Shown here one piece after another: positions 12,762 to 31,324 of a stretch of DNA of 64,000 nucleotides. The notes beneath the pieces were generated by a model. It was given only the letters and a program-made list of their open reading frames with translations. It was not told the DNA's origin and did no database searches. Position numbers and translations under genes: made by a program. The DNA is taken from assembly GCF_036634195.1 (NCBI RefSeq), contig NZ_JAZIFY010000002.1, positions 310,001 through 374,000 of the forward strand. The letters are read 5' to 3'. Position 1 is the first letter of the stretch. The number at the start of each line of letters is the position of its first letter. The stretch is from Streptomyces sp. P9-A4 (GTDB lineage Bacteria; Actinomycetota; Actinomycetes; Streptomycetales; Streptomycetaceae).

Positions 12762-12791
12762 CCGCTCGGCCGGTCCAGAAGCAGGACGAGA

Positions 12792-12805
12792 GGGCCATCC
12801 GGCCC
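12792..12805. promoter_or_regulatory. DosR-like box upstream of CBS-BON gene 1
   Basis: GGGCC-ATCC-GGCCC, a perfect 5-4-5 palindrome (arms extend to 7 bp), 118 bases before the ATG at 12923. It belongs to a recurrent box family in this island. Confidence 0.5.
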
Positions 12806-12922
12806 TCCTCACCATCGGCCGGTGAGGGGAGACTCGGTAGGGAAGACCCTCAGGAGGCCGCATGAGGCCGTGTCGCTCTCCGGCGTCGTGCGACCGCCCC
12901 GCCCAGTATTGCGGAGAACACG

Positions 12923-13549
12923 ATGCCCTCCTCGAAATACACCGTCAGTGACGTCATGACCCACACCGCCATCGCCATCGGACGTGACGCGCCCTACAAG
13001 GAGATCGTCGCGCTCCTGGACCAGTGGAAGGTGAGTGCCCTGCCCGTTCTGGAGGGGGAAGGACGGGTGATCGGGGTCGTGTCGGAGGCCGATCTGCTTC
13101 CGAAGGAGGAGTTCCGCGTCGACGAGCCCCGCCCGGACGAGTTCCCCGCGGCGTCCAAGGCCGGCGCCGTACGGGCCGGGGAACTCATGTCCAGTCCGGC
13201 CGTGACCGTCCACCCCGACGCGACACTCGCCGAAGCGGCACGGATCATGGCGACGCGGAGGGTGAAGCGCCTGCCCGTGGTCAACGGCGTCGGCATGCTG
13301 GAGGGCGTCGTCAGCCGGAGCGATCTGCTGAAGGTGTTCCTCCGTACGGACGCCGAGATCGAGGAGGACATCCGCCACTCCGTGCTCGGCGAGGCGGCGG
13401 CGCCCGTGGGGCTGGATGTGAGGGTCACGGACGGTGTGGCCGTGATCGGTGGGACGTTCTCCGACCGATCACTGGTGCCGCTGGTGGCCCGCGCCGTGCG
13501 GGCTGTGGAGGGCGTCGTCGACGTCCGCATGGATCTCGATGCCCCTTGA
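12923..13549 (+). CDS. CBS domain pair plus BON domain protein
   Basis: A 208-residue protein with two CBS domains (about residues 6-60 and 85-140) and a BON domain (about 150-208). CBS hallmarks are VSDVMTHTAIAI with VIGVVSEADLL and ELMSSPAVTVHPD with LEGVVSRSDLLK; the BON segment reads LDVRVTDGVAVIGGTFSDRS. CBS pairs usually sense adenosyl nucleotides, and BON domains bind lipids or proteins. GCGGAGAAC precedes the ATG. A close paralogue follows 336 bases downstream. Such proteins occur in actinobacterial dormancy regulons. The exact role is unknown. Confidence 0.88.
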   Translation: MPSSKYTVSDVMTHTAIAIGRDAPYKEIVALLDQWKVSALPVLEGEGRVIGVVSEADLLPKEEFRVDEPRPDEFPAASKAGAVRAGELMSSPAVTVHPDATLAEAARIMATRRVKRLPVVNGVGMLEGVVSRSDLLKVFLRTDAEIEEDIRHSVLGEAAAPVGLDVRVTDGVAVIGGTFSDRSLVPLVARAVRAVEGVVDVRMDLDAP

Positions 13550-13792
13550 GAGGCTTCATGACGGACAACCCTGGTGGGCGCGGGCACGTACCCGACCGAC
13601 GGCAGGGGTCGCCTCGGGTACCACCCGCTGCCGGATTCCACGCGCGCGCGGACCGACAGGGTGCCGCCCAGCCGCTCGGCCCGCCCGGACAGGGTGGGGG
13701 CGACCACGGACAGCGGAAGGAACGGGTTCTTCCTGGTCAGCAGCCGGGCACGGGCGGGTACCCGCCATACGAGTCCGTTCGGGCCTGAGGGT

Positions 13793-13806
13793 GGACCATT
13801 CGGCCC
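13793..13806. promoter_or_regulatory. DosR-like box upstream of CBS-BON gene 2
   Basis: GGACC-ATTC-GGCCC, 80-93 bases before the ATG at 13886. It is the only notable element in the 336-base gap 13550-13885, which otherwise shows no gene or terminator. Confidence 0.55.
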
Positions 13807-13885
13807 TCGCCGCCCCCGAGCGTGCGGTGGAGGGTGGTGTCACGGGACAGCACACCGGCCGAACCCCCGAACAGGAGGCGCGCTG

Positions 13886-14509
13886 ATGAAGCACATGAAG
13901 GTCGGCGGCCTGATGAGCGACGACGTGGTCTCCGCCGTCCCCGCGACCTCGTTCCGGGAGGTGGCGAAGCTGCTCGCCGAGCACGACATCAGCGGGGTCC
14001 CCGTCCTGGACGACGACGACCATGTCGTCGGAGTCGTCTCCGAGAGCGACCTCCTGGCCCGCCACGAACTCACCGCGCGGGAGCTCATGACCACGCCGGC
14101 CGTCACCGTTCACGCCGAGGAGACGGTGGCGGACGCCGCACGGCTGATGGTGCGCCGCGGAGTCGAACGCCTGCCCGTCGTCGACGAGGAGGAACGACTG
14201 GTCGGCATCGTGACCCGCCGCGATCTGCTCTGTGTCTACCTCCGCCCGGACGCGGAGATCCGCCGCCGCATCCGTGAGGACGTCCTCACGGACGCCATGG
14301 ACCTGCCCGAGAACACGGTGGACATGCACGTCCTCGACGGCGTGGTGACGCTTGAGGGCCGCGTCCGGCGGCGGAGTCAGGCCCTGACGCTCGTCGGACT
14401 CGCCGAACGCGTCGACGGCGTCGTCGCCGTCATGGACCGGCTGTCCTTCCACGAAGACGACACACGTGTCACATCCCCCACCCTGACTCCCCACGACGTC
14501 TCCTGGTAA
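13886..14509 (+). CDS. CBS domain pair plus BON domain protein, paralogue
   Basis: A 207-residue paralogue of the preceding CBS-BON protein. CBS 1 reads VGGLMSDDVVSAVPATSF with VVGVVSESDLLARHE, CBS 2 ELMTTPAVTVHAEETVADAA with VGIVTRRDLLCVYLR, and the BON core MHVLDGVVTLEGRVRRRSQA. The linker between the CBS domains is much shorter than in the first copy. ATG at 13886 follows AGGAGG. The nitroreductase gene begins 22 bases after its stop, so both probably share the promoter with the box at 13793. Confidence 0.88.
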   Translation: MKHMKVGGLMSDDVVSAVPATSFREVAKLLAEHDISGVPVLDDDDHVVGVVSESDLLARHELTARELMTTPAVTVHAEETVADAARLMVRRGVERLPVVDEEERLVGIVTRRDLLCVYLRPDAEIRRRIREDVLTDAMDLPENTVDMHVLDGVVTLEGRVRRRSQALTLVGLAERVDGVVAVMDRLSFHEDDTRVTSPTLTPHDVSW

Positions 14510-14531
14510 CCCACCGCAGACAGGACGAACC

Positions 14532-15521
14532 GTGCCCACCACCGCCCTGACCCGACCACTCGTGACGTCGCTGATCGAAGACGCCGTCACGGCTCCCTCC
14601 ATGCACAACGCACAGCCCTGGAAGTTCGTCCACAGGACGAGCACCGGAGTCATCGAACTGCACGGGGATCCGCTGCGCGGCATGCCGCACGAGGACCCGG
14701 ACCACCGCGCCCTCCACCTCGGCTGCGGCGCCGCCCTGTTCGGCCTGCGCGTCGCCGCCGTGCACCGGGGCCTGCACCCCGTGGTCCGACTGCTGCCCCA
14801 TCCGGACGCCCCTTGGCATCTCGCCGACGTACGCGTCGATGGCCCCGACGACGCCGACAGCGAACTGGGCATCCTGCATGACGCCCTGTCGCGCCGGCAC
14901 ACCAGCCGCTTCCCCTTCACCGAGGAGCGGATCCCGACCGAGGTGATCGACGGTCTCCGTACCGCGGCCTTCCTGGAAGGCTGCCGACTCGTCGTACCGG
15001 GAGCGTGGCACACCGACACCGTCATGGATCTCGTCCACGCCTCCGAGCTGTTCGAGGCGGCGGACGAGGCCGTACGCGCGGAGATCGCCGCCTGGACGCG
15101 CACGGGGGCGGCCGGGGAAGGCCCCGGCACCGAGGGCATCCCCTCGTACGCCTTCGGCCCGCGGCAGTACGACGTGACCTCCCCCGTCCGGGACTTCGGC
15201 GCGCCCCGCCAGGTGCCCGGCCGCGCCTCGGCGCGCTTCGAGAAGACGCCGCAGCTCGCACTGCTCGGCACGGTCGGCGACACCCCGGAGGATTGGCTGA
15301 AGGCAGGTCAGGCCATGGACCGGGTTCTGCTGCAGGCCACTCTCGACGGCCTTGCCACCTCCCTCATGTCCCAGCCGCTGGAATGGCCCGAGCTCCGTTC
15401 CGACGCACGCGATCCCGGTTCGACGATCGGCTTCGTCCACATGGTGTTCCGTCTGGGCTACGGCCCCCATGGGCGGGCCACACCGCGCCGTCCGGTCTCC
15501 GAGGTGCTCGCCTTCGACTGA
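14532..15521 (+). CDS. Acg-family FMN-binding nitroreductase-like protein
   Basis: A 329-residue nitroreductase-fold protein of the Acg type (relatives of Rv2032, a DosR-regulon gene). The N-terminus has the flavin/phosphate signature VTAPSMHNAQPWKFVHRTST, a second half contains SRRHTSRFPFTEERIPTEVI, and the C-terminal QVLLQATLDGL-like region plus LMSQPLEWPELR is family-typical. Some Acg proteins sequester FMN rather than reduce nitro groups, so activity is uncertain. GTG start. It ends 34 bases from the convergent GH65 gene, and I see no clear terminator between them. Confidence 0.88.
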   Translation: MPTTALTRPLVTSLIEDAVTAPSMHNAQPWKFVHRTSTGVIELHGDPLRGMPHEDPDHRALHLGCGAALFGLRVAAVHRGLHPVVRLLPHPDAPWHLADVRVDGPDDADSELGILHDALSRRHTSRFPFTEERIPTEVIDGLRTAAFLEGCRLVVPGAWHTDTVMDLVHASELFEAADEAVRAEIAAWTRTGAAGEGPGTEGIPSYAFGPRQYDVTSPVRDFGAPRQVPGRASARFEKTPQLALLGTVGDTPEDWLKAGQAMDRVLLQATLDGLATSLMSQPLEWPELRSDARDPGSTIGFVHMVFRLGYGPHGRATPRRPVSEVLAFD

Positions 15522-15555
15522 ACCGCTCCTCCCGGATCCCGGACGAATCCACTTC

Positions 15556-17946
15556 TCACAGACGGAACCAGCGCTCCTGGCCGGGTAGGACGGTCACCCT
15601 CCGGTCGCCAGGGAGAATGACGGCGAGCGGGCCCGCCGGCGAGGCGGGAACCCGGATGGCCAGCCGACCGGGAAGTACCCGCAGGCTCACTCCTCGATGA
15701 CGGCCGACGCACAGGGTGAAGGTGAACCTGGGGATCTCCGCCAGCGGCACCGGAGCCACGCGAAGGCCCTCCGGCCCCGTTTCGAGGCCGGTGATCCCGC
15801 GTTCGACGAGGTCGACCGTGCCGGCCATCGCGCCGAGATGGATGCCCTCGCCGGTCGTTCCGCCCTGGACGTCGGCCACGTCGGCGAGCAGGGCCTCCTC
15901 GCAGTACCTCCAGGCATCGGCACCCATCTGCCGGGCGAGCACCCAGCCGTGGACGAGGCTGCTGAGCGTCGAGCCGTGGCTGGTGCGCCGCAGGTAGTAG
16001 GAGACGGTCGCCCGCCACACCTCGTCGTCCAACGGGTAGCCGAGCCGGCCGAACAGGCCGTGCAGCTCCTCGGGCCGGAAGAGGTAGCCGAGCATGAGGG
16101 TGTCGGCCTGCTTCGACGCCTGGTAGCGGTTGACCGTGTCGCCCTCGGCCTCCAGGATCCGGTCGAGTCGGCGTATGTCGCCGTAGCGGGCGCGGTACGC
16201 CTCCCAGTCGAGCTCCGCGAGGTCCCCGTATCCCTCGAACTGGCTCACGACACCCTGGTGGAACGGCACGTGGAGGCGGCGGGAGACCTCTTCCCAGTGA
16301 GCGAGTTCGCCGTCGTCCAGCGCCAGTTGCTCCGAGAGTTCCGCGCGTCGGGCCGCGGGCAGTTCGCCGAGCAGGTCGAGGCCGCGGGCGAGCACCCAGG
16401 CGGCGGTGGCATTGGTGTAGGCGTTGTCGTCGATGCCCGGGGTCGCGGCGTCGGGATAGGCGTCGTGGTATTCGTCGGGTCCCATGACCCCGCGGATGCG
16501 GTAGCGGCCGAGCTCCGGGTCGAACGTGGCGGCCCCGGCCCAGTACCGGGCGACCTCGAGGAGGATCTCCGCCCCGGCGGAGTGGAGGAATCCACGGTCG
16601 CCGGTGGCCTGCGCGTGCCTCCAGACGTTGAACGCGACAGCCGAGCCCACATGCCGCTGGAGCCGGGAGTGGTCGGCCAGCCAGCGCCCTGAGCGTGGGT
16701 TGAGGTGCAGGGCCTGGGTCTCCTCCCGACCGGAACTCGCGCTCTGCCATGGGTACATGGCTCCCCGTCGGCCCGCGAGGCGGGCGGCCTCACGGGCGGC
16801 CGGCAACCGCCGATGCCGGTACATGAGCAGCGCCCGGGCCACCTCGGGGAAGTGGAGGTCGAGGTAGGGCAGGACGAAGAGCTCGTCCCAGAACACGTGC
16901 CCCCGGTACGCCTCACCGTGCAGACCTCGCGCGGGAACGCCCACGTCGAGGTCCGCCGTGTGCGGCGAGAGCGTCTGCAGCAGGTGGAACACGTGCAGCC
17001 GCAGAATACGGCCCGCCTCTCCCGGCACGGACAGCTCGCCCTGCTCCCAGACACGCTGCCAGGCCGCCTTGTGGGCGGAGAGGAGCCGGGAGAAGGAAGG
17101 AGCGCGAGCGATCACGTCGGTGGCCGCCGAGAGCGGTTCGGCGGCGGGCCGGTCCATCGAGGTGCGCAGTGCCAGGGTCTTCACGACCCTCGCCGTGCGG
17201 CCGGGGCCGACGGGCATGCGGTACGTCTGTACGGTGCCGGTCCCGGTGGCCGTTTCCCGCACGGGCCGCGCCGGGCTGGTGACCGTGCGCACGGCCATGG
17301 CGACGCTGATGCCCGGGTCGGCGGTACGGCAGGAGATCCACGCGACACCGTCGGGCTCGAATCCGGTCCGGTGGTCCGTGAGGTGACGCCCGTCGAGGTG
17401 CCGGTAGCGCTCCACCCCGAGGTTGGTGACCGTGCCGTCAAGGACGGAGCGCACCTCGACGGCGCCGCTCCAGCCGTAGGCGCGGAACACGGTGCACTGG
17501 GCCGCCAGCGCGGAGTCTCCCATGTGCACGATGCGGATGTGGCTGACGCGCAGGCCCCGCCCGAGGGCGTCCTCGAAGAACAGACGCCGGGTGAGCACAC
17601 CCGCGCGGAGGTCGACACGGATGTCGCAGTGACGCAGTTGCCCGTCGTCGGGGGTCAGCCAGTCGCCGGCCGGCCCCACGTCCGGCAGGCAGCGGTAGCG
17701 CAGCAGCGTCCAGTTCGGAAGGTTGACGAGATCCTCGTTGTCGACCCGTTCGCCGGCGACGACCGAGGTGAGCCGGTCGTAGCAGCCGGCCAGGTAGGTC
17801 CCGGGGTAGTGCGGGCCTCCGGCCGGGCACTCGGGAGCGGAGCCCCGGGTGGCGAACCGGCCGTTGCCGAGCGTGCAGAGCGCTTCGACCAGCGGCTCGC
17901 GCGCCGGGTCGTAGTGGTCGTACGCCCACGTCCAGGCGGTGGTCAT
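15556..17946 (-). CDS. Glycoside hydrolase family 65 (disaccharide phosphorylase-like)
   Basis: A 796-residue GH65 enzyme. The N-terminal beta-sandwich begins WAYDHYDPAREPLVEALCTL, with GNGRFATRGSAPE. The (alpha/alpha)6 catalytic barrel holds HVFWDELFVLPYLDLHFPEV and the general acid Glu492 in GVMGPDEYHDAYPD; QASKQADTLMLGYLF is the second signature. GH65 members phosphorolyse or hydrolyse trehalose, maltose or kojibiose. Partnership with a beta-phosphoglucomutase-like gene, whose stop overlaps this ATG, favours a phosphorylase producing beta-glucose 1-phosphate. Third gene of the ADH-HAD-GH65 operon. Confidence 0.92.
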   Translation of the reverse strand: MTTAWTWAYDHYDPAREPLVEALCTLGNGRFATRGSAPECPAGGPHYPGTYLAGCYDRLTSVVAGERVDNEDLVNLPNWTLLRYRCLPDVGPAGDWLTPDDGQLRHCDIRVDLRAGVLTRRLFFEDALGRGLRVSHIRIVHMGDSALAAQCTVFRAYGWSGAVEVRSVLDGTVTNLGVERYRHLDGRHLTDHRTGFEPDGVAWISCRTADPGISVAMAVRTVTSPARPVRETATGTGTVQTYRMPVGPGRTARVVKTLALRTSMDRPAAEPLSAATDVIARAPSFSRLLSAHKAAWQRVWEQGELSVPGEAGRILRLHVFHLLQTLSPHTADLDVGVPARGLHGEAYRGHVFWDELFVLPYLDLHFPEVARALLMYRHRRLPAAREAARLAGRRGAMYPWQSASSGREETQALHLNPRSGRWLADHSRLQRHVGSAVAFNVWRHAQATGDRGFLHSAGAEILLEVARYWAGAATFDPELGRYRIRGVMGPDEYHDAYPDAATPGIDDNAYTNATAAWVLARGLDLLGELPAARRAELSEQLALDDGELAHWEEVSRRLHVPFHQGVVSQFEGYGDLAELDWEAYRARYGDIRRLDRILEAEGDTVNRYQASKQADTLMLGYLFRPEELHGLFGRLGYPLDDEVWRATVSYYLRRTSHGSTLSSLVHGWVLARQMGADAWRYCEEALLADVADVQGGTTGEGIHLGAMAGTVDLVERGITGLETGPEGLRVAPVPLAEIPRFTFTLCVGRHRGVSLRVLPGRLAIRVPASPAGPLAVILPGDRRVTVLPGQERWFRL

Positions 17947-18716
17947 CCGCGCTCACCCCAGACGCTCCCGACCAGCGTGGTCAGATCGGGAACGACCAGG
18001 TCGGCACCCTGCTCCCGCAGGAGGGCGGTGGTGCTCCGCAGCGGGGTGCGGTCGACTCCGACGACGAGCCCGAAACCGCCGCGACGTGCCGCCTCGACTC
18101 CGGCGAGTGCGTCCTCGACGACCGCGGTCTCGCGCGGGCGGCTGCCGAGGAGGCCCGCCGCACGGAGGAAGAGCGCGGGATCCGGCTTCCCGGCGAGGCC
18201 GAGCCTGGCGGCGTCCCCGCCGTCCACGATCACCGTGAGGAGACTGCCGAGCCCCGCGCCATGTATCAGTGCCCGGGCATGCCGGGAGGCGGACACGGCG
18301 GCGCACGGCACTCCCGCCGTGCGGAGGGCCCCGAGAGCCGGCCGGACGTCGGCGAAGGCCGTGACGCCCTTCCGGCGGAGCAGATCGACGAATGCCTGTT
18401 CCTTGTGTGCCGCGACGGCCCAGACCGTGCCGTGGCCGGGGGCGTCGTGGGGATCTCCCGGTGGGAGGTGAAGGCCGCGGGCGGCGAGGAAGGCGGCGGC
18501 GCCGTCGTACCGGGACCTGCCGTCGACGAACCGGCGGTACTCGGCGTCCGCGTCGAAAGGCGGCTGGGGCCCGCCGCCGGGCGCCAGCCGGTCGAGGCAG
18601 GCGTCGAACGCGGTCTTCCACGCCTGCGCGTGCACGGCGGCCGAGTCGAGCAGAACGCCGTCGGTGTCGAGGACGACGCTCTCCGGCGGCCGAGAGCCAG
18701 GGCCTCGGCCGTTCAT
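17943..18716 (-). CDS. HAD hydrolase, beta-phosphoglucomutase-like
   Basis: A 257-residue HAD-superfamily protein. The nucleophile motif is VVLDTDGVLLDS with D17 and D19, followed by the helical cap and KEQAFVDLLRRKGVTAF. Motif II is CAAVSASRHA, and LAGKPDPALFLRAAGLLG with AVVEDALAGVEAARRGGFG supplies the Lys and acidic residues of motifs III and IV. It should interconvert beta-glucose 1-phosphate and glucose 6-phosphate, completing the path from the GH65 product. The start overlaps the dehydrogenase stop by one base, and its stop overlaps the GH65 start by three. Confidence 0.9.
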   Translation of the reverse strand: MNGRGPGSRPPESVVLDTDGVLLDSAAVHAQAWKTAFDACLDRLAPGGGPQPPFDADAEYRRFVDGRSRYDGAAAFLAARGLHLPPGDPHDAPGHGTVWAVAAHKEQAFVDLLRRKGVTAFADVRPALGALRTAGVPCAAVSASRHARALIHGAGLGSLLTVIVDGGDAARLGLAGKPDPALFLRAAGLLGSRPRETAVVEDALAGVEAARRGGFGLVVGVDRTPLRSTTALLREQGADLVVPDLTTLVGSVWGERG

Positions 18717-19795
18717 CAGGCCGCCGGCGCGTCGGGGACGCTCACGACCGTGTGCTGCGGGCCGCCCAGCGCGACCTTGATGGCGCCGGTCTCGGCCGCT
18801 CCGCCGAACACCTCGTACGCCTCCTCCATCTGCCCCAGCTCGAACCGGTGGGTGATCAGTTCCGCCGACGGCAGCCGCCCCGCGGCCATCATGCGCAGCA
18901 GCATGGGAGTGGACGAGGTGTCGACCAGCCCGGTGGTGATGGTGACGTCCTTGATCCACAGGTCTTCGAGGTGGAGGACCGCCGGCTTGCCGTGCACTCC
19001 GATGTTGGCGACCCTGCCGCCCGGCCGGACCATCCGCGTACACATCTCGAACGCCTCCGGGACACCGACGGCCTCCATGACGACATCGGCCCCGAGACCG
19101 TCGGTCAGATCCGCGACGAGCTGCTCGGGGCCTTCCTTCGCGTTCACCGTGGCGTCCGCGCCCAGGGCACGGGCGGCGTCCAGTCGCGACGCGGCCAGGT
19201 CGACGGCGACGATCCGGCTCGGACTGTAGAAGCCGGCCGTGGCGATGGCGGCGAGACCGATGGGACCCGCGCCGACGACGACCACCGTGTCGGCGGGGCG
19301 CACGGCACCGTTCAGAACCCCGACCTCGTAGGCGGTGGGGAAGATGTCGGCCAGCAGAACCGCGTCGGAGCCCCCGATCGAGTCCGGCAGCGGATGGACG
19401 GACAGGTCGGCGAAGGGCACGCGGACGTATTCGGCCTGTGTGCCGTCGACGGTGTGGCCGAGGATCCAGCCGCCTCCGCCGCGGCACTGCCCGTAGCGGC
19501 CTTCACGGCAGAACCGGCACCGGCCGCAGGCGGAGATGCAGGAGACCAGGACGCGGTCTCCCGGTCGCACCGAGCGGACGTCGCCGCCGGTCTCGACGAC
19601 GGTGCCCACCGCTTCGTGTCCGAGGACCCGGCCGGGCGTCACCTCCGGCACGTCGCCCTTCAGGATGTGCAGGTCCGTGCCACAGATCGTGACGACGTCG
19701 ACCCGTACGATCACGTCGGCGGGGTCCTCGATCCCCGGGTCGGGTACATCGCGCCAGGCGATCTCACCCGGCCCCTGGAAGACGAGCGCCTTCAT
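18716..19795 (-). CDS. Zinc-dependent alcohol dehydrogenase (MDR family)
   Basis: A 359-residue medium-chain dehydrogenase. Catalytic zinc ligands are C38 (TICGTDLH) and H60-E61 (GHEAVG); structural zinc cysteines are C90, C93, C96 and C104. The Rossmann motif is VVVVGAGPIGLAAIA. The start MKALVFQGPGEIAW at 19795 has AGGTGG upstream. Substrate unknown; it may reduce aldehydes to recycle NADH under oxygen limitation, which would suit the island. It leads the ADH-HAD-GH65 operon, and a DosR-like box lies 76-89 bases before its start. Confidence 0.9.
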   Translation of the reverse strand: MKALVFQGPGEIAWRDVPDPGIEDPADVIVRVDVVTICGTDLHILKGDVPEVTPGRVLGHEAVGTVVETGGDVRSVRPGDRVLVSCISACGRCRFCREGRYGQCRGGGGWILGHTVDGTQAEYVRVPFADLSVHPLPDSIGGSDAVLLADIFPTAYEVGVLNGAVRPADTVVVVGAGPIGLAAIATAGFYSPSRIVAVDLAASRLDAARALGADATVNAKEGPEQLVADLTDGLGADVVMEAVGVPEAFEMCTRMVRPGGRVANIGVHGKPAVLHLEDLWIKDVTITTGLVDTSSTPMLLRMMAAGRLPSAELITHRFELGQMEEAYEVFGGAAETGAIKVALGGPQHTVVSVPDAPAA

Positions 19796-19870
19796 CGCGT
19801 CCACCTGCTTTCTCTCGCGCGTAGCCTCGGTCCCCGTCACCAGGCTCTGTGGAACCCTCCGCCCGCACAT

Positions 19871-19884
19871 GAGCCGGTCGGCCC
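19871..19884. promoter_or_regulatory. DosR-like box upstream of alcohol dehydrogenase
   Basis: GAGCC-GGTC-GGCCC, one mismatch from a perfect 5-4-5 dyad, 76-89 bases before the ADH start at 19795. The distance matches that seen at other genes of the island. Confidence 0.45.
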
Positions 19885-19892
19885 CCGAAACG

Positions 19893-19906
19893 GGCCCGCT
19901 CGGACC
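19893..19906. promoter_or_regulatory. DosR-like box upstream of the broken MBL gene
   Basis: GGCCC-GCTC-GGACC, 64-77 bases before the ATG at 19970 and on the other side of the divergent promoter from the ADH box. The match is weaker than the others. Confidence 0.35.
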
Positions 19907-19969
19907 CTCCGTACGGGCCGGTCCGGGTGTCACGTTGGGGACCGGTCCATGCCGAAGGAGGGCCGACCA

Positions 19970-21109
19970 TGACCGAGGCAGCCCCGAACGCCCCTCGCAG
20001 CACTCCGCGGCCCGCACTGCTCAGTTTCCTGGGCGGCGTGGGCACCGTCACCGGCAGCAAGTTCCTGGTCGAGAGCGACCATGCGCGAATCCTCCTCGAC
20101 TGCGGTCTCTTCCAGGGTTTCGCGACCCTGCGACGCCGCAACTGGGAGCGGTTCGCCCGCAGAACGCGCTCTGCTCGGGGTCCCGGGAGTCGGTGACGAC
20201 CAGGATCTCCTCGAACTTCGCGCCGCACGACGACAACCGCCGGACGAGCGCCGCACGGTGAAGGTCTCGAACGGGGACCTGGGGCGGCCCGGGCACCCGC
20301 TGCTGCCGCCCGAGCCGTTCTCCGGCGCCGACGCGCTGCTCATGGAGTCCACGTACGGCGACCGCCGCCACGACCAGGAGTCCGCCCGCTCGGGGTTCGC
20401 CGCCGTGATCGCCCGGACTCTCGCCCGGAGCGGCACCGTCGTCATCCCCGCCTTCGCCATCGACCGCACCGAGGTCGTCCTGCACGAGCTGACCCTGCTG
20501 CGCGAGAGGGGTGTCCTGCCCCGGTCGGTCCCCGTGTACGTGGACAGCCCCATGGCCCTGGCCGCCCTGGACGTCTACCGGGACGCGGTAAGCGAGCGCT
20601 CCCCCGAGCTGCGGCCGGAAATCCTCGCCGAGGGAGCTGCCGCGCTGAGCCCGGAGCCGTTCCTCGCCGCGCGTACGGTCCAGGAATCCATCGGGATCAA
20701 CGAGGTCGGCGGCCCCGCCGTCATCGTCTCGGCGGCCGGCATGGCGACCGGCGGCCGTGTTCTGCACCACCTGCACCGGCTGCTCCCGGACCCGCGCAAC
20801 GCGGTCGTCGTGGTCGGCTTCGCCGCGGCCGGCACCCGGGCGCGGGACCTGGTGGACGGTGCCAGGACGCTGAAGATGTTCGGCGAGTACGTGCCCGTAC
20901 GGGCTGAGGTCGCCGACGTACCCCACTTCTCGGCCCACGCCGACGCCGACCAGATCCTCGACTGGCTGCGCGGCGCCCCTCCCCCGCATACCACCTACCT
21001 CGTCCACGGCGAACCGGCCGCGTCCGAGGCGTTGCGCGACCGCATCGACCACGAACTGGGCTGGGCCGCCGTCGTACCTCGCTCGGGTGAGGCCGTCCTG
21101 GTCCGGTGA
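19970..21109 (+). pseudogene. Broken metallo-beta-lactamase/beta-CASP nuclease-like gene
   Basis: The start [12 protein letters not shown] with [20 protein letters not shown] and [20 protein letters not shown] is the N-terminus of an MBL-fold RNA-processing hydrolase. After about 20150 the frame runs off, and the similarity resumes in another frame as [50 protein letters not shown] and [10 protein letters not shown] to a stop at 21109. The intervening 80-120 residues, including the HxHxDH metal motif, are gone. The protein cannot bind its metals normally. The C-terminal part from about 20250 stays open and could still be expressed. Confidence 0.8.
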
Positions 21110-21112
21110 CGG

Positions 21113-21706
21113 TCAGTCGTCGTCGGCCCCCGGAGAGCTCCCCCGGCGGAGCCGGCCGGACCACACGGGTTCGACCTGCTCCCACTCCCGTTCCCAGGCG
21201 TCGAGCCGACGGGATCCGGTCCGCCGTCGTACGAGGACGAGGGCGCCGGCCCCGATCGCTCCGACGGAGGCCATGGCGACGCTCCCGCCCGAGAACGAGG
21301 TCAGTGCGCGGTCGACGGCGCTGCCCGCAGGGCGGGCGGGGGTGCCGGCGTCATCCACCCAGATCGTCACCGTGCCGCCCCGGGGCGTCCCTGAAGGGAC
21401 GTGGACGGTGCCGTACCGAAGGACGTGGTCGGGCTGTTCCCAGACCGCGGGTGCGACGGACTTCGGCGTCGCCCCGTACCGGGTGGCGACGGGCGGGTCC
21501 TTGGCAGGCGCGGTGGTGGTCGCCCGCACCTGGTGGCGGTGGGCGGCGATTTCACGGTCGGCCCTGGCTCCGGTGTTCCACAGGCTCGCGGTGGCCACGA
21601 CGCCGCAGATCAGGGAGATCATCAGGACGAGGACCAGTGCGGCGCGAGCGCCGGGTCCCCACCCGGACGGCGTGGGTCGCGGGTCCGACCGCTTGTGGTG
21701 GTCCAT
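21113..21706 (-). CDS. Rv1733c-like membrane protein
   Basis: A 197-residue protein with two membrane segments (about residues 20-43, ARAALVLVLMISLICGVVAT; about 138-160, GGSVAMASVGAIGAGALVLV) flanking an extracytoplasmic domain with GTPRGGTVTIWVDDAGTPAR. This layout, with the C-terminal WEREWEQVEP motif, marks the Rv1733c family, whose mycobacterial founder is a DosR-regulon antigen of unknown function. ATG at 21706 follows GGAGGTG. It lies 48 bases after the Hsp20/flavodoxin gene in the same direction and is probably in its operon. Confidence 0.8.
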   Translation of the reverse strand: MDHHKRSDPRPTPSGWGPGARAALVLVLMISLICGVVATASLWNTGARADREIAAHRHQVRATTTAPAKDPPVATRYGATPKSVAPAVWEQPDHVLRYGTVHVPSGTPRGGTVTIWVDDAGTPARPAGSAVDRALTSFSGGSVAMASVGAIGAGALVLVRRRTGSRRLDAWEREWEQVEPVWSGRLRRGSSPGADDD

Positions 21707-21754
21707 GTCGCACCTCCGGGCGGAGTCGCCTGCCGGACGGGCCGCCGGCACCTG

Positions 21755-22258
21755 TCAGCGCATGGTGCCGAGTTCGGTTCCGATGTGGTGGGCCCACTCC
21801 CGGATCCGTTCCGGGTCGCGGAAGTCTGCGCCCTTTCCGTGGCGGACCAGGGACCGGCTGACGCGGCCCGGGGTCTCGCCGGTCACGGCGCCCCCGAAGG
21901 TCATGTGCTCCCGGGCGCCGAGGCTGTTCATCCGGCGGGCGACACCGGGTACCGGCGGGATGTCGTGCTGCTCGGCGGAGTCGTCGAGGGGGCCGCTGCT
22001 GAAGAGCCAGACCGGGCGACGGCGGAGCTGGTCGGCGTTGCGCCGTACGCACCGTCGCGCCTTGCCGTTCCAGTGCCCGGCATAGAGGGCCCCGCCGAGT
22101 ACGACTCCGTCGTAGCCGCTGACGTCGGAGACGGTGTCGGCCGGCAGGACGACGGCATCGAAGCCGTCGGCCTTGAGCGTCCGGCCGATCTCGTCGGCGA
22201 TCCCTCTGGTCGCGCCGTGCTTGCTGCCGTATGCGACCAGGACTCGTCGGGGGTTCAC
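21755..22258 (-). CDS. Alternative internal start: free flavodoxin-like protein
   Basis: GTG at 22258 is preceded by GAAGGAGG eight bases upstream, a better ribosome site than most in this window, exactly where a stand-alone flavodoxin-type protein (VNPRRVLVAYGSKHGATRGI) would begin. It would give 167 residues, the family's usual length. It lies in the same frame as the Hsp20 part, so the free protein and the fusion could both be made. Family members bind FMN and act as menaquinone-dependent protoporphyrinogen IX dehydrogenases or general flavodoxins. Confidence 0.5.
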   Translation of the reverse strand: MNPRRVLVAYGSKHGATRGIADEIGRTLKADGFDAVVLPADTVSDVSGYDGVVLGGALYAGHWNGKARRCVRRNADQLRRRPVWLFSSGPLDDSAEQHDIPPVPGVARRMNSLGAREHMTFGGAVTGETPGRVSRSLVRHGKGADFRDPERIREWAHHIGTELGTMR

Positions 22259-22714
22259 GACGTGGCCTCCTTCGGGCGGGGTGCCGCCTCGCTTCACCGG
22301 GATGGTGCGTGCGGCGCCCGTCTCCTGCTCGGGCAGCGGTACGCGGATGGTGAGGATGCCGTCCGTGTACGACGCCTCGACGTCGTCGGCCGGGATCGTG
22401 CCCGGCAGACGTACGGTTCTGCGGAACGATCCGTAGCGGAACTCCGAGTGCTCCTTGTCCTCCTCGCTCTCGCTGTGCTCCGCGCTCACGGTGATGAGGT
22501 TGTCGTCGACGGTGATGCTGATGTCGTTGTCCGGGTCCATTCCCGGGAGCTCGGCGCGCAGTACGTACACACCGTCACCGCTGTTCACCTCCACCGGAAT
22601 GGAGTGAGCGGTCGTCGCGGGTCGCCATCCCGGCAGCCCCGGAAACTCCCGGCTGAACCAGTCGTTGAAGTCGGGGAAGAGGCTGTGCCTGCGTTCCACC
22701 TTGCCTCCGGCCAT
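21755..22714 (-). CDS. In-frame Hsp20-flavodoxin fusion
   Basis: A single 319-codon frame. Residues 1-150 are an alpha-crystallin small heat-shock protein (FNDWFSREFPGLPGWRP; VLRAELPGMDPDNDISITVD; FRRTVRLPGTIPADDVEASY; GILTIRVPLPE). Residues 155-319 form a flavodoxin-like domain of the menaquinone-dependent protoporphyrinogen oxidase type (RRVLVAYGSKHGATRGIADE; DGVVLGGALYAGHWNGKARR). These are normally separate genes. No stop codon lies between them, and a good internal start exists at 22258. Either a chimera or two overlapping products are made. DosR-like boxes lie 157-190 bases upstream. Confidence 0.8.
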   Translation of the reverse strand: MAGGKVERRHSLFPDFNDWFSREFPGLPGWRPATTAHSIPVEVNSGDGVYVLRAELPGMDPDNDISITVDDNLITVSAEHSESEEDKEHSEFRYGSFRRTVRLPGTIPADDVEASYTDGILTIRVPLPEQETGAARTIPVKRGGTPPEGGHVVNPRRVLVAYGSKHGATRGIADEIGRTLKADGFDAVVLPADTVSDVSGYDGVVLGGALYAGHWNGKARRCVRRNADQLRRRPVWLFSSGPLDDSAEQHDIPPVPGVARRMNSLGAREHMTFGGAVTGETPGRVSRSLVRHGKGADFRDPERIREWAHHIGTELGTMR

Positions 22715-22870
22715 CGTTCTGCTCCTCGGTTCGGGGGCCCAGGACGCTCGCCGCGGACCTGATCCCGTACGGACAGGCGGTGGACCGGGTTACGGGGCCG
22801 GTCCGCCTCCGTAACCCCATCGTCTGCCCGCGAGGTCACGTCGCGCAGCGTCCAAGGGGGCTGTCCGGCG

Positions 22871-22884
22871 GGGCCGAACGGGCC
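22871..22884. promoter_or_regulatory. DosR-like box (distal) upstream of hsp20
   Basis: GGGCC-GAAC-GGGCC, 157-170 bases upstream of the Hsp20 start; one mismatch from the dyad. It is paired with a second box 20 bases further on. Confidence 0.4.
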
Positions 22885-22890
22885 GCACCT

Positions 22891-22904
22891 GGACCGACCG
22901 GCCC
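22891..22904. promoter_or_regulatory. DosR-like box upstream of hsp20
   Basis: GGACC-GACC-GGCCC, same arms as the box before CBS-BON gene 2. The two boxes start 20 bp apart, about two helical turns. The rest of the 312-base gap 22715-23026 holds no gene. Confidence 0.5.
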
Positions 22905-23026
22905 ATGGCGCCACGGCTCCGGTGCTGTCAGCGGCGGATCTCCTCGACGGAGCGCCCGCCCGAGGCGTGGCGTCCGGGGCCGGGGTCGGTCGCGCGGGAA
23001 CGGGACCGTTCCGAGCAGTGTCTCGT

Positions 23027-23932
23027 TCACGTCTCCTCGACCCGGGTGGCGAAGGCGGGTGGAACGATCTCCACCGGGCAGTGGGCGTGGTGGAGCAGGG
23101 TGTGGGCGACGCGCCCCAGTGACGGGCCCGCACCCAGGACACGGTGTTCTCTGCCCATCACGAGCAGATCGGTATGGGCACTCGTCTCCACCAGGGTCCC
23201 GGGCGTGCTCGTGCCCGTCTCGACATGGTGGCTGATGTCGAGCCCGGGGTAGAAGTCGCGTACACGGTCGGCGAGCGCCTTGATCTCGTGCACGCGCTGC
23301 CGCGCGATCTCGTCCAGGTCGTCCAGCATGCTCACGACGCTGCCGACGTGGGTGAGCACGTTCCAGACGCTCACCAGCCGCAACAGCGCCTTGCGGGCGT
23401 CGGCCTCGGCAGCCGCGACGAGCAGCCAGCCGAGATCCGAAGCACCGTGTACGGCCGCCGTCACCGAGCCCGACTCGGGGCGGTCGCCGTCACCACGGAC
23501 GACGATCACGGGCGCCTCGGCGCGAGCGGCCACGCCCAGACCGACGGAGCCGAGCATGAGGGCGGAGAAGCCGCCGAGCCCCCGGTTGCCCACCACGATC
23601 GTGCCCCCGTGGCCGGCGGCCGCCCGGAGACCGGCGACCGGCTCCTGGCGGCTCAGTTCCTTCGTGACGGCAAGGTCCGGAAAGCGCTCCTGGACCGTGC
23701 TCGCGGTCTTGATCAGCAGGTCGCGGCCTGCTTCGCGTACCGCCTGGAGCGTATCGGCATGGGCGAAGAGCGCACGGCGGTCGGTGTCGGCGGCGTGGAC
23801 GAGACGCAGGGAACGGCTCCGTCGGTCCGCCTCGTCGGCGGCCCAGAGAGCGGCCCTGCGCCCGGAGGGAGACCCGTCGACCCCCACGACGACATCGCCG
23901 AGCTCCGGTCGAGCGGGGGTCTCGCTGGTCAT
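23027..23932 (-). CDS. Tandem universal stress protein
   Basis: A 301-residue protein with two UspA domains. Domain 1 (about residues 10-145) has DVVVGVDGSPSGRRAALWAA and the ATP-binding loop GNRGLGGFSALMLGSVG, fitting G-x2-G-x9-G-S. Domain 2 (about 155-295) has LLVMGREHRVLGAGPSLGRV, where the glycine loop is degenerate, so probably only domain 1 binds ATP. The start at 23932 follows GGAGGAGG. Tandem Usps are typical DosR-type targets in actinobacteria. A perfect box lies 92-105 bases upstream. Confidence 0.92.
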   Translation of the reverse strand: MTSETPARPELGDVVVGVDGSPSGRRAALWAADEADRRSRSLRLVHAADTDRRALFAHADTLQAVREAGRDLLIKTASTVQERFPDLAVTKELSRQEPVAGLRAAAGHGGTIVVGNRGLGGFSALMLGSVGLGVAARAEAPVIVVRGDGDRPESGSVTAAVHGASDLGWLLVAAAEADARKALLRLVSVWNVLTHVGSVVSMLDDLDEIARQRVHEIKALADRVRDFYPGLDISHHVETGTSTPGTLVETSAHTDLLVMGREHRVLGAGPSLGRVAHTLLHHAHCPVEIVPPAFATRVEET

Positions 23933-24023
23933 GGTTCCTCCTCCGGGGTACGCCCGGCGCTCGGGAGCACGTCCCGAGGGGCGACACCTCTCACGCTGAC
24001 ACCGTGGCGGGCCTCCCGGGGAT

Positions 24024-24037
24024 GGGCCGTTCGGCCC
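24024..24037. promoter_or_regulatory. DosR-like box upstream of universal stress protein 1
   Basis: GGGCC-GTTC-GGCCC, a perfect 5-4-5 palindrome 92-105 bases before the Usp ATG at 23932. The remainder of 23933-24202 shows no gene. Confidence 0.55.
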
Positions 24038-24202
24038 CGATCGAGACCTGCCCGGCCCTGCCTGCCAGGGGGAGGACTGGCCGAACCCTCCCGACGCGCC
24101 CCTGCCGTACGCCCGCACCTCGGCCGAGCGGGCGGAGAGTCTCCTGCGGGACGAGGGGGACCTCGTACGGAAGGACCACCCTGGCCTGCTCGCAGTCGGC
24201 GA

Positions 24203-24928
24203 TCACTGTCGGGGCGGGTCTTGGCCGGCGGACCCGGACGGTGTGCCGGGCGCGCCCGGCACCCGGATGCGGCGGCCGGTCACCCGGCGCGGCGAGAGCG
24301 TCACCACGGTGTCCCGCCCGTCCCCGGCCCACGGCTCCGAGTGGATCGCGTCCCTGATCCTCCGTACCGAGGTCTCGTCCGACACCCTTCGTACCGGACC
24401 GACGAGGAGCACGCTCCAGCCCTGGCTGAAGGCTTCGTCCAGGCGATCCTCCTCGAAGGCGACTTCCGCGCCGGAGGCCGCGCCGCGCGCGAGGGACGAG
24501 TCGGCGGCCGTCATGAAGACGATCTCCCGGTCGACGACCTGGTAGTTCACGGGGATCACCATGAGCCCGTCCCGTCCTTCGACGGCGACCCGGCCGACGC
24601 CGTGGCCGTCGAGCAGCTCCCAGCACTCGGCTTCGCCGATGTCCTCCATCTGTGCGCGGTACCCGGCGCGGGCTCCTCCGGGTGCGAGGTCCGCCGTGGA
24701 CCCGGTGAGATCCCGGACGGTGGTCTCCAGGGCGTTCGCGAGCCGGACCAGGAATTCGATCCCCGGAGTGGACACCCGCTCCTCCACGTAAGCGAGGAAT
24801 GCGGGGGTGGTTCCGGCCCGCTCGGCCACGTCCTCCCGGGACAGGCCGAGTTCTGCGCGCCTGGCCGCGACGCGGCGGCCCAGATCGCTCGTGGCGTGTG
24901 GGGTATGACGGTCTTCGGCCGTGTTCAT
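24203..24928 (-). CDS. HTH plus pyridoxamine-phosphate-oxidase-like protein
   Basis: A 241-residue fusion. Residues about 14-75 are a Cro/C1-type helix-turn-helix (LGRRVAARRAELGLSREDVA, then ERAGTTPAFLAYVEE). Residues about 95-230 form a split-barrel flavin-binding domain (CWELLDGHGVGRVAVEGRDG; PVNYQVVDREIVFMTAADSS; GWSVLLVGPVRRV). A flavin- or F420-responsive regulator is plausible but unproven. ATG at 24928 follows GGAGAG and overlaps the stop of the upstream Usp gene by one base, so the two are coupled. This domain pair recurs in Streptomyces stress islands. Confidence 0.87.
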   Translation of the reverse strand: MNTAEDRHTPHATSDLGRRVAARRAELGLSREDVAERAGTTPAFLAYVEERVSTPGIEFLVRLANALETTVRDLTGSTADLAPGGARAGYRAQMEDIGEAECWELLDGHGVGRVAVEGRDGLMVIPVNYQVVDREIVFMTAADSSLARGAASGAEVAFEEDRLDEAFSQGWSVLLVGPVRRVSDETSVRRIRDAIHSEPWAGDGRDTVVTLSPRRVTGRRIRVPGAPGTPSGSAGQDPPRQ

Positions 24929-25581
24929 CACCGCTCTCCTTCCATCCGCTCCGGACGCCGCTGGGACACGACGGCGACCGGACGATCGGCGTGGTGCAGG
25001 GCGCGGTGGGCGACCCTGCCCAGCTCCGGACCGACGAGCCCGTCCCGGCGCCGGGCTCCCACGACGAGCAGGTCGGCGGCGGAGCGCTCGGTCAGCACCC
25101 GGTGGGCGGGTCCCTCGACCGTGGTCCTGCGCGGGCGCACCCGGGGATGCTCGGACGCCGTGTCCGCCAAGGCCTTGCCGAACGGTTCGAAAGACCCCGC
25201 GAAGTGGGGTCCTCCGTCCCCACGCAGAAGGCCGGCGAAATCGCCGCGCCCGCGGGACCCGACGACGAGGATCGCGCCCGTCCCTCCCTCTCCGAGGAGC
25301 GCGCTGGACGCGTCCTCGGCCAGGACGTCCGTGGTGAGGGGGAGGTCGGGTGCACGGCGCCGGGCGCGTTCGGCCGCGGTGCCGACGATGTTCTCGGCGA
25401 GGATCTGGCCCGACGGCCGGTCCGTGGCGCAGGCCGGCACGACTCCTTCGTGCCGTTCCCGCAGCGAGGCATGGACGATCCGCAGGGGAAGCCCGTGCCG
25501 TACGGCTTCGTCGACCGCCCGGTCCAGGGCCGTGAGACTGGCGCCGCACCCGTCGACTCCTGCCACCAAGGGCGGTTCCAT
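24928..25581 (-). CDS. Shortened universal stress protein (internal deletion)
   Basis: A 217-residue Usp. It opens as a normal first domain (PPLVAGVDGCGASLTALDRA, VVGSRGRGDFAGLLRG), then passes straight to the last half of a second domain (RVRPRRTTVEGPAHRVLTER; DLLVVGARRRDGLVGPELGR; ALHHADRPVAVV). Tandem Usps are about 290 residues, so some 70 residues spanning the end of domain 1 and the start of domain 2 are missing in frame. The start at 25581 gives the family N-terminus; GGAGAGG lies about 12 bases upstream. Coupled to the HTH/flavin gene. Confidence 0.8.
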   Translation of the reverse strand: MEPPLVAGVDGCGASLTALDRAVDEAVRHGLPLRIVHASLRERHEGVVPACATDRPSGQILAENIVGTAAERARRRAPDLPLTTDVLAEDASSALLGEGGTGAILVVGSRGRGDFAGLLRGDGGPHFAGSFEPFGKALADTASEHPRVRPRRTTVEGPAHRVLTERSAADLLVVGARRRDGLVGPELGRVAHRALHHADRPVAVVSQRRPERMEGER

Positions 25582-25633
25582 CGTGCCCACCACCTCTCCG
25601 GGGTCGTGTGGTGCCTGCTGCCACGCTCGCACC

Positions 25634-25647
25634 GGGCCGAAGGAGCC
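25634..25647. promoter_or_regulatory. DosR-like box (proximal) upstream of universal stress protein 2
   Basis: GGGCC-GAAG-GAGCC, 53-66 bases before the ATG at 25581. Imperfect in its second arm; one of two sites 19 bp apart. Confidence 0.35.
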
Positions 25648-25652
25648 GGGTA

Positions 25653-25666
25653 GGGCCGGTCGGTCC
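25653..25666. promoter_or_regulatory. DosR-like box (distal) upstream of universal stress protein 2
   Basis: GGGCC-GGTC-GGTCC, 72-85 bases before the ATG at 25581 and the reverse complement form of the box before CBS-BON gene 2. Confidence 0.5.
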
Positions 25667-25823
25667 CGGGCGCGGCCCGCACGGACCACATGGGGAGGCG
25701 ACGCGGTGACACGAAGGGAGGAGGGGCTCCTCCTCACCTTCACGAAGACCTGCCACGGCCGTCCCGAGACCGACGCTCATGCCTTCCACCATGCGTCCCG
25801 ATCGGCCGCTGGTCATGGGGCCG

Positions 25824-25964
25824 ACCGGTCCGCACCCGGTGAAGAATCCCGTCGATCACCTGCCGATGATCACGCCACCTGCCACAACGTCTGTTGCTGA
25901 CCGGCAGGAACGGCCGCAGCCGTTCCCACTCCGCATCGCTCAGATCACCCCGCCCCGTGCCCAC
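25824..25964 (-). pseudogene. IS5-type transposase N-terminal remnant
   Basis: About 47 codons match the start of IS5-family transposases: LSDAEWERLRPFLPVSNRRC, then GRWRDHRQVIDGILHRVRTG. After Gly47 the frame continues without similarity (RPHDQRPIGTH), so the DDE catalytic part is gone. No terminal inverted repeats are obvious. It sits at the edge of the stress island, in the gap between universal stress protein 2 and the histidine kinase; 25667-25823 holds nothing else recognisable. Confidence 0.75.
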
Positions 25965-30383: not shown

Positions 30384-31161
30384 CCGGACCGAGGCCGGGG
30401 CGGTCCCCTGGCGGCACGCCGAACCGGTGATGGGCACCGTGGTGTCCTTCACCCTGCGCCACCCTCGGACGCCAGAGATGCGGGCCGCGCTGGGCGAGGC
30501 GGTGGCGCTGCTGCACGAGGTCGACCGGGAGTTCTCCCCGTTCCTGCCCGACAGCGCCGTGAGCCGCCTGCGGCGTGGCGAGTCGGGCCGAGCCGACACC
30601 GCTCCCGCCGTACGGCGGGTGCTGGAACTGTGCGACCTCGCGCACAGCCGCACCCGGGGCGCCTTCGACGCCTGGGCGGACGGCCGGCCCGATCCGTGCG
30701 GTCTGGTGAAGGGCTGGGCCGCCGAACGGGCCTGGCAGGTGCTGCGGAAGGCGGGCGCCACCGATGCGTGTGTGAACGCGGGCGGTGACGTACGGGTCGG
30801 TGGCGCACCGGGACCCGCGGGCGTCTGGCGTACCGGGATCGCCGACCCCAGGCGCCCGGGGCGGCTGCTCGCGGTGGTGGGGGGACGAGATCTCGCGGTC
30901 GCCACCTCCGGCACGACGGAGCGGGGCGCGCACATCATCGACCCGCGCACGCGGGCACCGGCCACAGAGCTGCTGTCGGCGACGGTGACGGGCCCGGAAC
31001 TGTTGTGGGCCGACGTCTACGCGACGGCGGCGATGGTCCTGGGCGCGCGCGAGGCGCATCGGTGGATCACCACTCTGCCGGGGTACGCCCTGCTCACGGT
31101 GGCGGCGGACGGCGAGGCGCGGGCGTCCGGGAACTTCCCGTTCCTCGCTTCGTCCGGGTAG
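30376..31161 (+). CDS. apbE: FAD:protein FMN transferase ApbE
   Basis: A 261-residue ApbE-family flavin transferase that attaches FMN to a Thr/Ser of exported domains. Family blocks are AEPVMGTVVSFTLRH at the N-terminus, CGLVKGWAAERAWQVLRKAG with CVNAGGDVRVGG in the middle, and ATSGTTERGAHIIDPRTRAP followed by WADVYATAAMVLG. It lacks an obvious signal peptide or lipobox, unlike many ApbEs, so it may act in the cytoplasm before export of its target or be exported otherwise. Overlap with the FMN-binding gene ties it to that substrate. Confidence 0.92.
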   Translation: MDDRTEAGAVPWRHAEPVMGTVVSFTLRHPRTPEMRAALGEAVALLHEVDREFSPFLPDSAVSRLRRGESGRADTAPAVRRVLELCDLAHSRTRGAFDAWADGRPDPCGLVKGWAAERAWQVLRKAGATDACVNAGGDVRVGGAPGPAGVWRTGIADPRRPGRLLAVVGGRDLAVATSGTTERGAHIIDPRTRAPATELLSATVTGPELLWADVYATAAMVLGAREAHRWITTLPGYALLTVAADGEARASGNFPFLASSG

Positions 31162-31189: not shown

Positions 31190-31324
31190 ATCGGCGCGGG
31201 CGGCGCGATCGGCGCGGGCGGCGTGACCGGCGCGATCGGCGTGACCGGCGCGATCGGCGTGACCGGCGCGATCGGCGCGATCGGCGCGATCGGCGCGATC
31301 GGCGCGATCGGCGCGATCGGCGCT
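31190..31324. repeat. Fifteen-unit 9-bp tandem repeat
   Basis: Fifteen contiguous 9-base units of the form A(T/C)CGGCG(C/T)G. The 5' part alternates ATCGGCGTG with ACCGGCGCG as an 18-bp higher-order repeat; the 3' part is six near-identical ATCGGCGCG units. It lies 28 bases after the apbE stop. Every frame is open across it (for example Gly-Ala-Ile repeats), but none shows start or family support. The number of units is likely to vary between strains. Confidence 0.9.

Follow-up and report, generated by a model that had tools for sequence, protein, structure and literature searches.

Promoters of the response regulator DevR (DosR) in Mycobacterium tuberculosis carry boxes with the core GGGAC/GTCCC. 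In these promoters the start-proximal box lies over the -35 element and is joined by cooperative secondary sites (PMC3029386), and Moores et al. (2017) reported that DosR promoters depart from the -10 consensus of SigA (PMC5360333). For OsdR of the OsdKR system (SCO0203/SCO0204) in Streptomyces coelicolor, a consensus AGGGCCGATCGGCCCT has been published; phosphorylated OsdR binds in vitro, and the predicted targets include Usp, nitroreductase, PNPOx and ADH genes (PMC5069765). The sites in Table 1 of that study are mostly predicted, electrophoretic mobility shift assays covered seven target regions, and its accessible sections give neither start sites nor a paired-box layout for OsdR. Here, we analysed a window of 64,000 bp from Streptomyces sp. 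P9-A4, that is positions 310001-374000 of a 693-kb contig (C2) in a 7.5-Mb genome made of two contigs (C1 and C2). The original prediction had read nine copies of a 14-bp box in this window as a dormancy-type (DosR-like) regulon governed from elsewhere. Consistent with this claim, the window contains palindromic boxes that match AGGGCCGATCGGCCCT, lie between genes and upstream of starts, and precede stress-type targets, identified by Pfam as Usp, Hsp20, nitroreductase and CBS genes; the protein that had been labelled Rv1733c-like had no Pfam match. These matches support an OsdR-type regulon whose regulator likely lies outside the window. Given this agreement with the consensus, the kind of regulon is already known; what our analysis adds is a promoter grammar and an apparently split osdR operon.

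We scored boxes with a matrix built solely from the 25 distinct S. coelicolor OsdR sites in Table 1 of Urem et al. 2016 (PMC5069765), whose 16-mers start one base before the 14-bp coordinates of the prediction. Genes were called with an in-house codon-usage script, so that intergenic limits are approximate. By these calls all nine predicted positions (9/9) are intergenic, and seven of them are good sites, whereas 19893 makes a weak partner for 19871 at a distance of 22 bp, and 25634 was dropped as a box with a score of just 2.0. The same two positions depart from GGRCC-N4-GGYCC by two mismatches, counted by eye, and are not among the matches with at most one mismatch in the window, while the other 7/9 follow the pattern as claimed. 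Three sites scoring between 9.5 and 11.6 had been overlooked (13772, 22795 and 25818; Table 1). From box centre to next start, the seven good sites measure in order 125, 87, 73, 163, 183, 98 and 69 bp, five of them inside the predicted range of 55-130. The prediction is thus partly confirmed, as it holds for seven sites out of nine.

The stretch from 12.7 to 26.0 kb holds 10 intergenic sites scoring at least 9 in 2,072 intergenic bp, where 40 stretches of 20 kb drawn at random from this genome lead one to expect 0.33. It has one such site in coding DNA; the remaining window has none between genes and two in coding DNA. The Poisson P for 10 versus 0.33 is 3e-12, but it treats all sites as independent, which does not apply to duplicated promoters or paired boxes. 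With column-permuted palindromic matrices, 0/300 gave 10 sites (mean 0.33, maximum 8). At a score of at least 10, the larger island C2:274-336 kb contains 15 sites in 13.4 kb of intergenic DNA versus 2 in 48.6 kb of coding DNA, and a random sample contains 9 in 106 kb of the former and 47 in 693 kb of the latter. The same bias is seen in the loci of relatives described below, with 1.108 sites of at least 12 per kb between genes versus 0.019 per kb within them.

We then looked for regularities around the boxes of related promoters. Out of 287 osdR relatives, 80 loci were kept (77 from Streptomyces, 3 from sister genera), and 260 intergenic boxes scoring at least 13 were taken from them, from loci L047, L048 and L051 and from the window. 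Orientation could be given to 258 boxes, the 124 in divergent promoters being assigned to the nearer gene; 246 lie at most 260 bp from a start, and 199 remain once near-identical contexts are removed (95 in one-gene and 104 in divergent promoters). First, across 474 tests a second box scoring at least 4 is found at 20, 21, 22 and 23 bp in 3.2, 7.4, 6.3 and 1.9%, respectively. Most other spacings give 0-0.8%, the exceptions being 14 bp (1.9%), where the second box overlaps the first, and 31-33 bp (1.3-1.7%). Second, among the 246 oriented boxes the hexamer [CGT]ANNNT reaches 103 per 3-bp bin at +30..+32 from the box centre, over a background of 11.5, with a second peak of 67 at about +51..+53. 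Third, we used as a control the far side of the same palindromic box, facing away from the gene. In the 95 one-gene promoters NANNNT occurs 43 times toward the gene versus twice away from it at +29..+32, and 32 versus 4 times at +50..+53, while other positions show 6-9 toward and 4-6 away (36-47), 10 and 3 (60-63) or 6 and 8 (70-73). The 104 divergent promoters, read for the nearer gene, give 45 toward and 17 away at the first phase, and 29 and 15 at the second. Fourth, the class of the hexamer predicts the side of the partner box: with a hexamer at about +30 the partner stands upstream in 38/80 cases and downstream in 2/80, and with one at about +52 it stands downstream in 35/56 and upstream in 4/56. 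If the hexamer is a -10 element, the box centres would lie near -42 and -63. One phase or the other is present in 149/199 non-redundant boxes.

The composite of box and correctly phased hexamer was found in 187/246 genomes of the genus, against 94/246 for an equal-width wrong phase, although some of these genomes may also be training genomes; among the composite matches listed, some recur with near-identical spacers and resemble coding DNA. TANNNT was not enriched at any position near the boxes (two TAGGTT stand at +28), and a search for a -35 hexamer beside the box returned for TTGNC only a small bin at +30/+31 (5/246) and none at the -35 position. The "other" genes around osdR proved unusable as a negative control, 24% of 936 having a site of at least 10, because they share the same islands. 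Our searches of an open-access library returned no prior statement of a -42/-63 layout with a T-less -10 for Streptomyces.

In the phased hexamer the base before ANNNT is mostly G or C, unlike in TANNNT, which in S. coelicolor marks 80.4% of 3,570 starts (PMC4895711). Its first base is T in 2/80 hexamers of the -42 class, 0/56 of the -63 class and 9/516 of the background; as it follows the background, T is not selected at this position. When Table 2 of PMC5360333 is read one base earlier than printed, which is our own reading, 0/7 DosR promoters have TANNNT and 4/7 have [GC]ANNNT (DrrS, Rv0574c, Rv1733c and narK2), while Rv2629 has AACGAT in the printed frame and Rv0079 and Rv2032 have no final T. 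In other actinobacterial genera, we used a generic 10-position box, which gave 155 sites, 121 of them left after distance and redundancy filters, in 38/40 loci. Peaks appear at +30/+31 (15 and 8) and +52/+53 (9 and 5) against about 3 per position, but the mirrored control in 52 one-gene promoters was unconvincing (9 toward/5 away and 6/2, next to 8/2 at +36..+39 and 7/1 at +44..+47). The phase rule was thus only partly successful in these genera. Since their phase is weak and a first T is frequent (9/26 and 3/19, versus 6/137 in the background), the T-less form may be chiefly streptomycete.

Taking these observations together, we consider it likely that the boxes are OsdR/DevR-type operators, with predicted binding and a -42/-63 activator layout that feeds a T-less -10 element. 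A phosphorylated OsdR dimer, presumably responding to oxygen, would bind the box centred at about -42 and replace the -35 element. Often OsdR would also occupy a further box near -63, roughly two helical turns upstream and in most cases weaker, and it would recruit RNA polymerase to a [G/C/A]ANNNT -10 that lacks the usual first T. We propose that, because of this missing T, the promoter would depend on its activator. The window genes would belong, as one block, to a larger OsdR island that is duplicated in part (about C2:274-336 kb). The absent T could instead mean that some alternative sigma factor, and not HrdB, reads the hexamer, the regulon then needing both OsdR and that factor; we find this unlikely, as the hexamer, with A second and T last, suits the housekeeping pattern and DosR has been reported to act on SigA-dependent promoters in M. 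tuberculosis (PMC5360333).

A regulator outside the window was indeed found: a DevR/DevS-like pair, hereafter osdR and osdK, is also encoded on C2, 33-35 kb ahead of the window. The closest solved relative of the kinase is the DosT/DevS GAF domain, and for this C2 pair the DNA-contact motif EKTVKN is retained in the alignment. The closest named relatives of this osdR come from Streptomyces narbonensis and S. flavochromogenes (96%). The genome encodes two more DevR-like regulators, 68% and 62% identical to the C2 OsdR (next regulator 44%), the first of which is paired with a kinase on C1 (Table 1). Exact GGGCCGTTCGGCCC occurs seven times in the genome, four times at C1:447-453 kb and three times at C2:291-334 kb; the first C2 copy follows the C2 pair at a distance of 14 kb, and the other pair is located inside the C1 cluster. 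Around the C1 pair (C1:447314-453345, locus L051) five boxes of at least 12 are placed upstream of the genes for a fatty-acid desaturase and for the regulator, and in the gaps between PNPOx and a gene without Pfam match and between the kinase gene and COX1. The C1 regulator also has a short insertion in its receiver domain relative to DevR.

These paralogues raise the question of which regulator serves the window. Boxes lie upstream of the C1 regulator gene, whereas no site above 3.5 was found in the 1.7 kb upstream of C2 osdR; in the loci of relatives, 59% of 81 osdR-like genes have a site of at least 10 within 320 bp. With three DevR-like regulators at 62% identity or more to the C2 OsdR, another one (C1:450841 or C1:3635386) might mainly serve the boxes, or several might do so jointly, leaving the C2 OsdR redundant. 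We give this possibility little weight, given that the C2 OsdR is 86-96% identical to the regulators of the about 30 best osdR loci of relatives and shares its island with the window boxes.

In S. narbonensis, a box is followed by a cNMP-binding open reading frame, CBS-BON_1 and osdR, with osdK convergent; in 6/8 relatives' loci compared for gene order, osdR comes immediately after CBS-BON_1, with osdK as the following called gene. Judged by this gene order, CBS-BON_1 is the ancestral neighbour of osdR. The window has kept the box and CBS-BON_1; next come DNA that matches the upstream region of osdR (13487-13613) and an osdK scar, and the regulator pair has apparently been lost from this site after CBS-BON_1. 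The osdRK genes occupy C2:274510-277230 and are preceded by pieces of another CBS-BON_1 copy. We infer that an ancestral CBS-BON/osdR operon was split by duplication and reciprocal loss, although an assembly error may also account for the split.

Duplication extends further, as part of the block at 13.7-25.7 kb is present a second time at C2:281.0-293.3 kb, in five main segments of 79-94% identity. The duplicate retains boxes at three promoters (13771/13792 = 281082/281103, 24023 = 291028 and 25652 = 293223), and the hsp20 boxes 22870/22890 fall outside the aligned segment. Because the block is duplicated, the recurrence of the box is partly plain duplication, yet the duplicates keep the box. 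The copies also differ in their genes. Hsp20 and flavodoxin form a single 319-aa frame in the window (21755-22714) and two overlapping genes in the paralogous region C2:287448-288409, and the Usp at 24928-25590 (220 aa) is without the middle segment of its paralogue at C2:292253-293161 (302 aa). An MBL-fold-like gene at 19970-21109 seems to be broken, with the N-terminal part in one frame and the remainder in another, and fragments matching this gene and the ADH gene were found at C2:281969-282266.

Several results weigh against the proposed operators and their phase rule. The sites behind the matrix are themselves mostly predictions. The loose one-mismatch motif is not enriched in the window (57 found versus 57.2 expected), nor is GGRCCNNNCGGYCC genome-wide (213+202 versus 195+209 for the control), and we dropped loose-motif counts as evidence, both being at chance. 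Occurrence as often inside coding DNA, which the original prediction had set as the result that would contradict it, is seen with the loose motif but not with the full matrix (15 versus 2 in the island). Exact GGRCCN4GGYCC occurs nine times in the window versus 3.2 expected, and 3/9 (5493, 28381 and 55978) lie outside the cluster; a site scoring 14.1, probably there by chance, lies at 49970-49985 in the coding frame 47909-50098. Neither phase is present in 50/199 non-redundant boxes. The two-box layout is strong as a rule for the relatives taken together; in the window it fits 13771/13792 and 19870/19892, but the partner of 22870/22890 is on the side that the rule does not predict, no partner was found for 12791, and those of 24023 and 25652 are very weak (0.8 and 1.3). 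In the C1 cluster, a phased hexamer was found only at 447314, where it is TACGGT, and none at 449224, 450638, 450662 and 453329; as most C1 boxes misfit, the phase rule does not hold throughout even this one genome. Nevertheless, an origin of the boxes as G+C-rich palindromes produced by chance or base composition, which the chance level of the loose motif and the share of duplication in their recurrence might suggest, is extremely improbable in view of the published-site matrix, the permuted matrices, the intergenic bias, the conservation over 80 loci and the phase locking.

Six window promoters carry a phased hexamer, and its first base is G or C in each (Table 1). The nitroreductase gene is probably cotranscribed with CBS-BON_2, given a gap of 22 bp. 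Farther along, a short tandem repeat of GATCGGCG-like units was noticed by eye at about 31200-31320, after a gene ending at 31161.

Table 1. Boxes, hexamers and genes of the window, in window positions, followed by the DevR-like regulators of the genome, in contig positions. Scores are from the published-site matrix; 14-bp coordinates of the original prediction are in brackets.
Feature	Position	Strand	Details
OsdR-type box before CBS-BON_1 (12792)	12791..12806		score 16.2; hexamer GAGACT 12829-12834 (+30)
CBS-BON_1 gene	12923..13549	+	Pfam CBS, BON
osdK scar	13625..13693		81% over 69 bp, blastn to L137 10742-10810 and C2:275371-275439
Box pair 13771/13792 before CBS-BON_2 (13772, 13793)	13771..13807		21 bp apart; scores 9.5, 10.7
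Hexamer GAGGGT for 13771/13792	13830-13835		+30 from proximal box
CBS-BON_2 gene	13886..14509	+	Pfam
Nitroreductase-family gene	14532..15521	+	Pfam nitroreductase
ADH and HAD hydrolase genes	17943..19804	-	ADH 18716-19804, HAD 17943-18716; Pfam
Hexamer GAGCCT for 19870/19892	19847-19842	-	toward ADH-HAD-(GH65, a label of the original prediction)
Box 19870 and weak partner 19892 (19871, 19893)	19870..19907		22 bp apart; scores 9.1, 4.9
Hsp20-flavodoxin gene	21755..22714	-	Pfam HSP20, Flavodoxin_5
Additional box-like site upstream of hsp20 (22795)	22794..22809		score 9.7
Hexamer GACGAT for hsp20 pair	22824-22819	-	+53 from 22870
Box pair 22870/22890 upstream of hsp20 (22871, 22891)	22870..22905		20 bp apart; scores 13.0, 9.8
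Universal stress protein gene	23027..23932	-	Pfam Usp
Box before Usp (24024)	24023..24038		score 16.4; hexamer CAGCGT 23998-23993, minus strand (+32)
Short Usp and HTH-PNPOx genes, overlapping	24203..25590	-	Usp 24928-25590, HTH-PNPOx 24203-24931; Pfam
Box before Usp / HTH-PNPOx (25653)	25652..25667		score 14.9; hexamer GAGCGT 25628-25623, minus strand (+31)
Additional box (25818)	25817..25832		score 11.6; nearest start 234 bp away
osdR (DevR-like regulator)	C2:274632-275318		3c3w (DevR) E 8.6e-74, 251 bits; next 142
osdK (DevS/DosT-type kinase)	C2:275325-277058		GAF domain match 2vzw E 5.9e-54
Second DevR/DevS-like pair	C1:450841-451521 and C1:451540-453213		best structure matches as for C2 pair
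Third DevR-like regulator	C1:3635386		62% identity to C2 OsdR

Compared with the described systems, this locus shares with OsdKR of S. coelicolor the consensus, the regulator family, the clustering of targets around the regulator and the target types (PMC5069765); it differs in an osdR without upstream box and CBS-BON partner and in the duplicated gene block. With class II CRP-type activator promoters, named in PMC5360333, it has in common a predicted activator site overlapping the -35 element, whereas here the boxes are paired and the regulator belongs to the NarL family. Regarding DevR/DosR of M. tuberculosis, the regulator and the sensor GAF domain are related, and the -10 elements, putative in this strain, deviate from TANNNT in both systems. 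The box core of this strain is GGGCC/GGCCC, unlike the mycobacterial one, and the DosR regulon of M. tuberculosis comprises many more genes in an organism with a different life style.

A broader reading seems to us possible, though somewhat short of probable. OsdR-class promoters of Streptomyces would have a fixed -63/-42 layout with [non-T]ANNNT, often followed by GG, and be strictly activator-dependent; the deviant -10 of mycobacterial DosR promoters would be the same element; and duplication with reciprocal loss would have cut osdR from its own operator, the ancestral promoter still driving CBS-BON. If the grammar is true, OsdR targets and their starts could be called from Streptomyces sequences more cleanly than with box scans, the silence of DosR/OsdR promoters without their regulator would have a testable reason, and the streptomycete and mycobacterial systems would be linked at the promoter level. 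As for the split operon, the dormancy regulator of this strain would be expected to have lost self-amplification via its own box.

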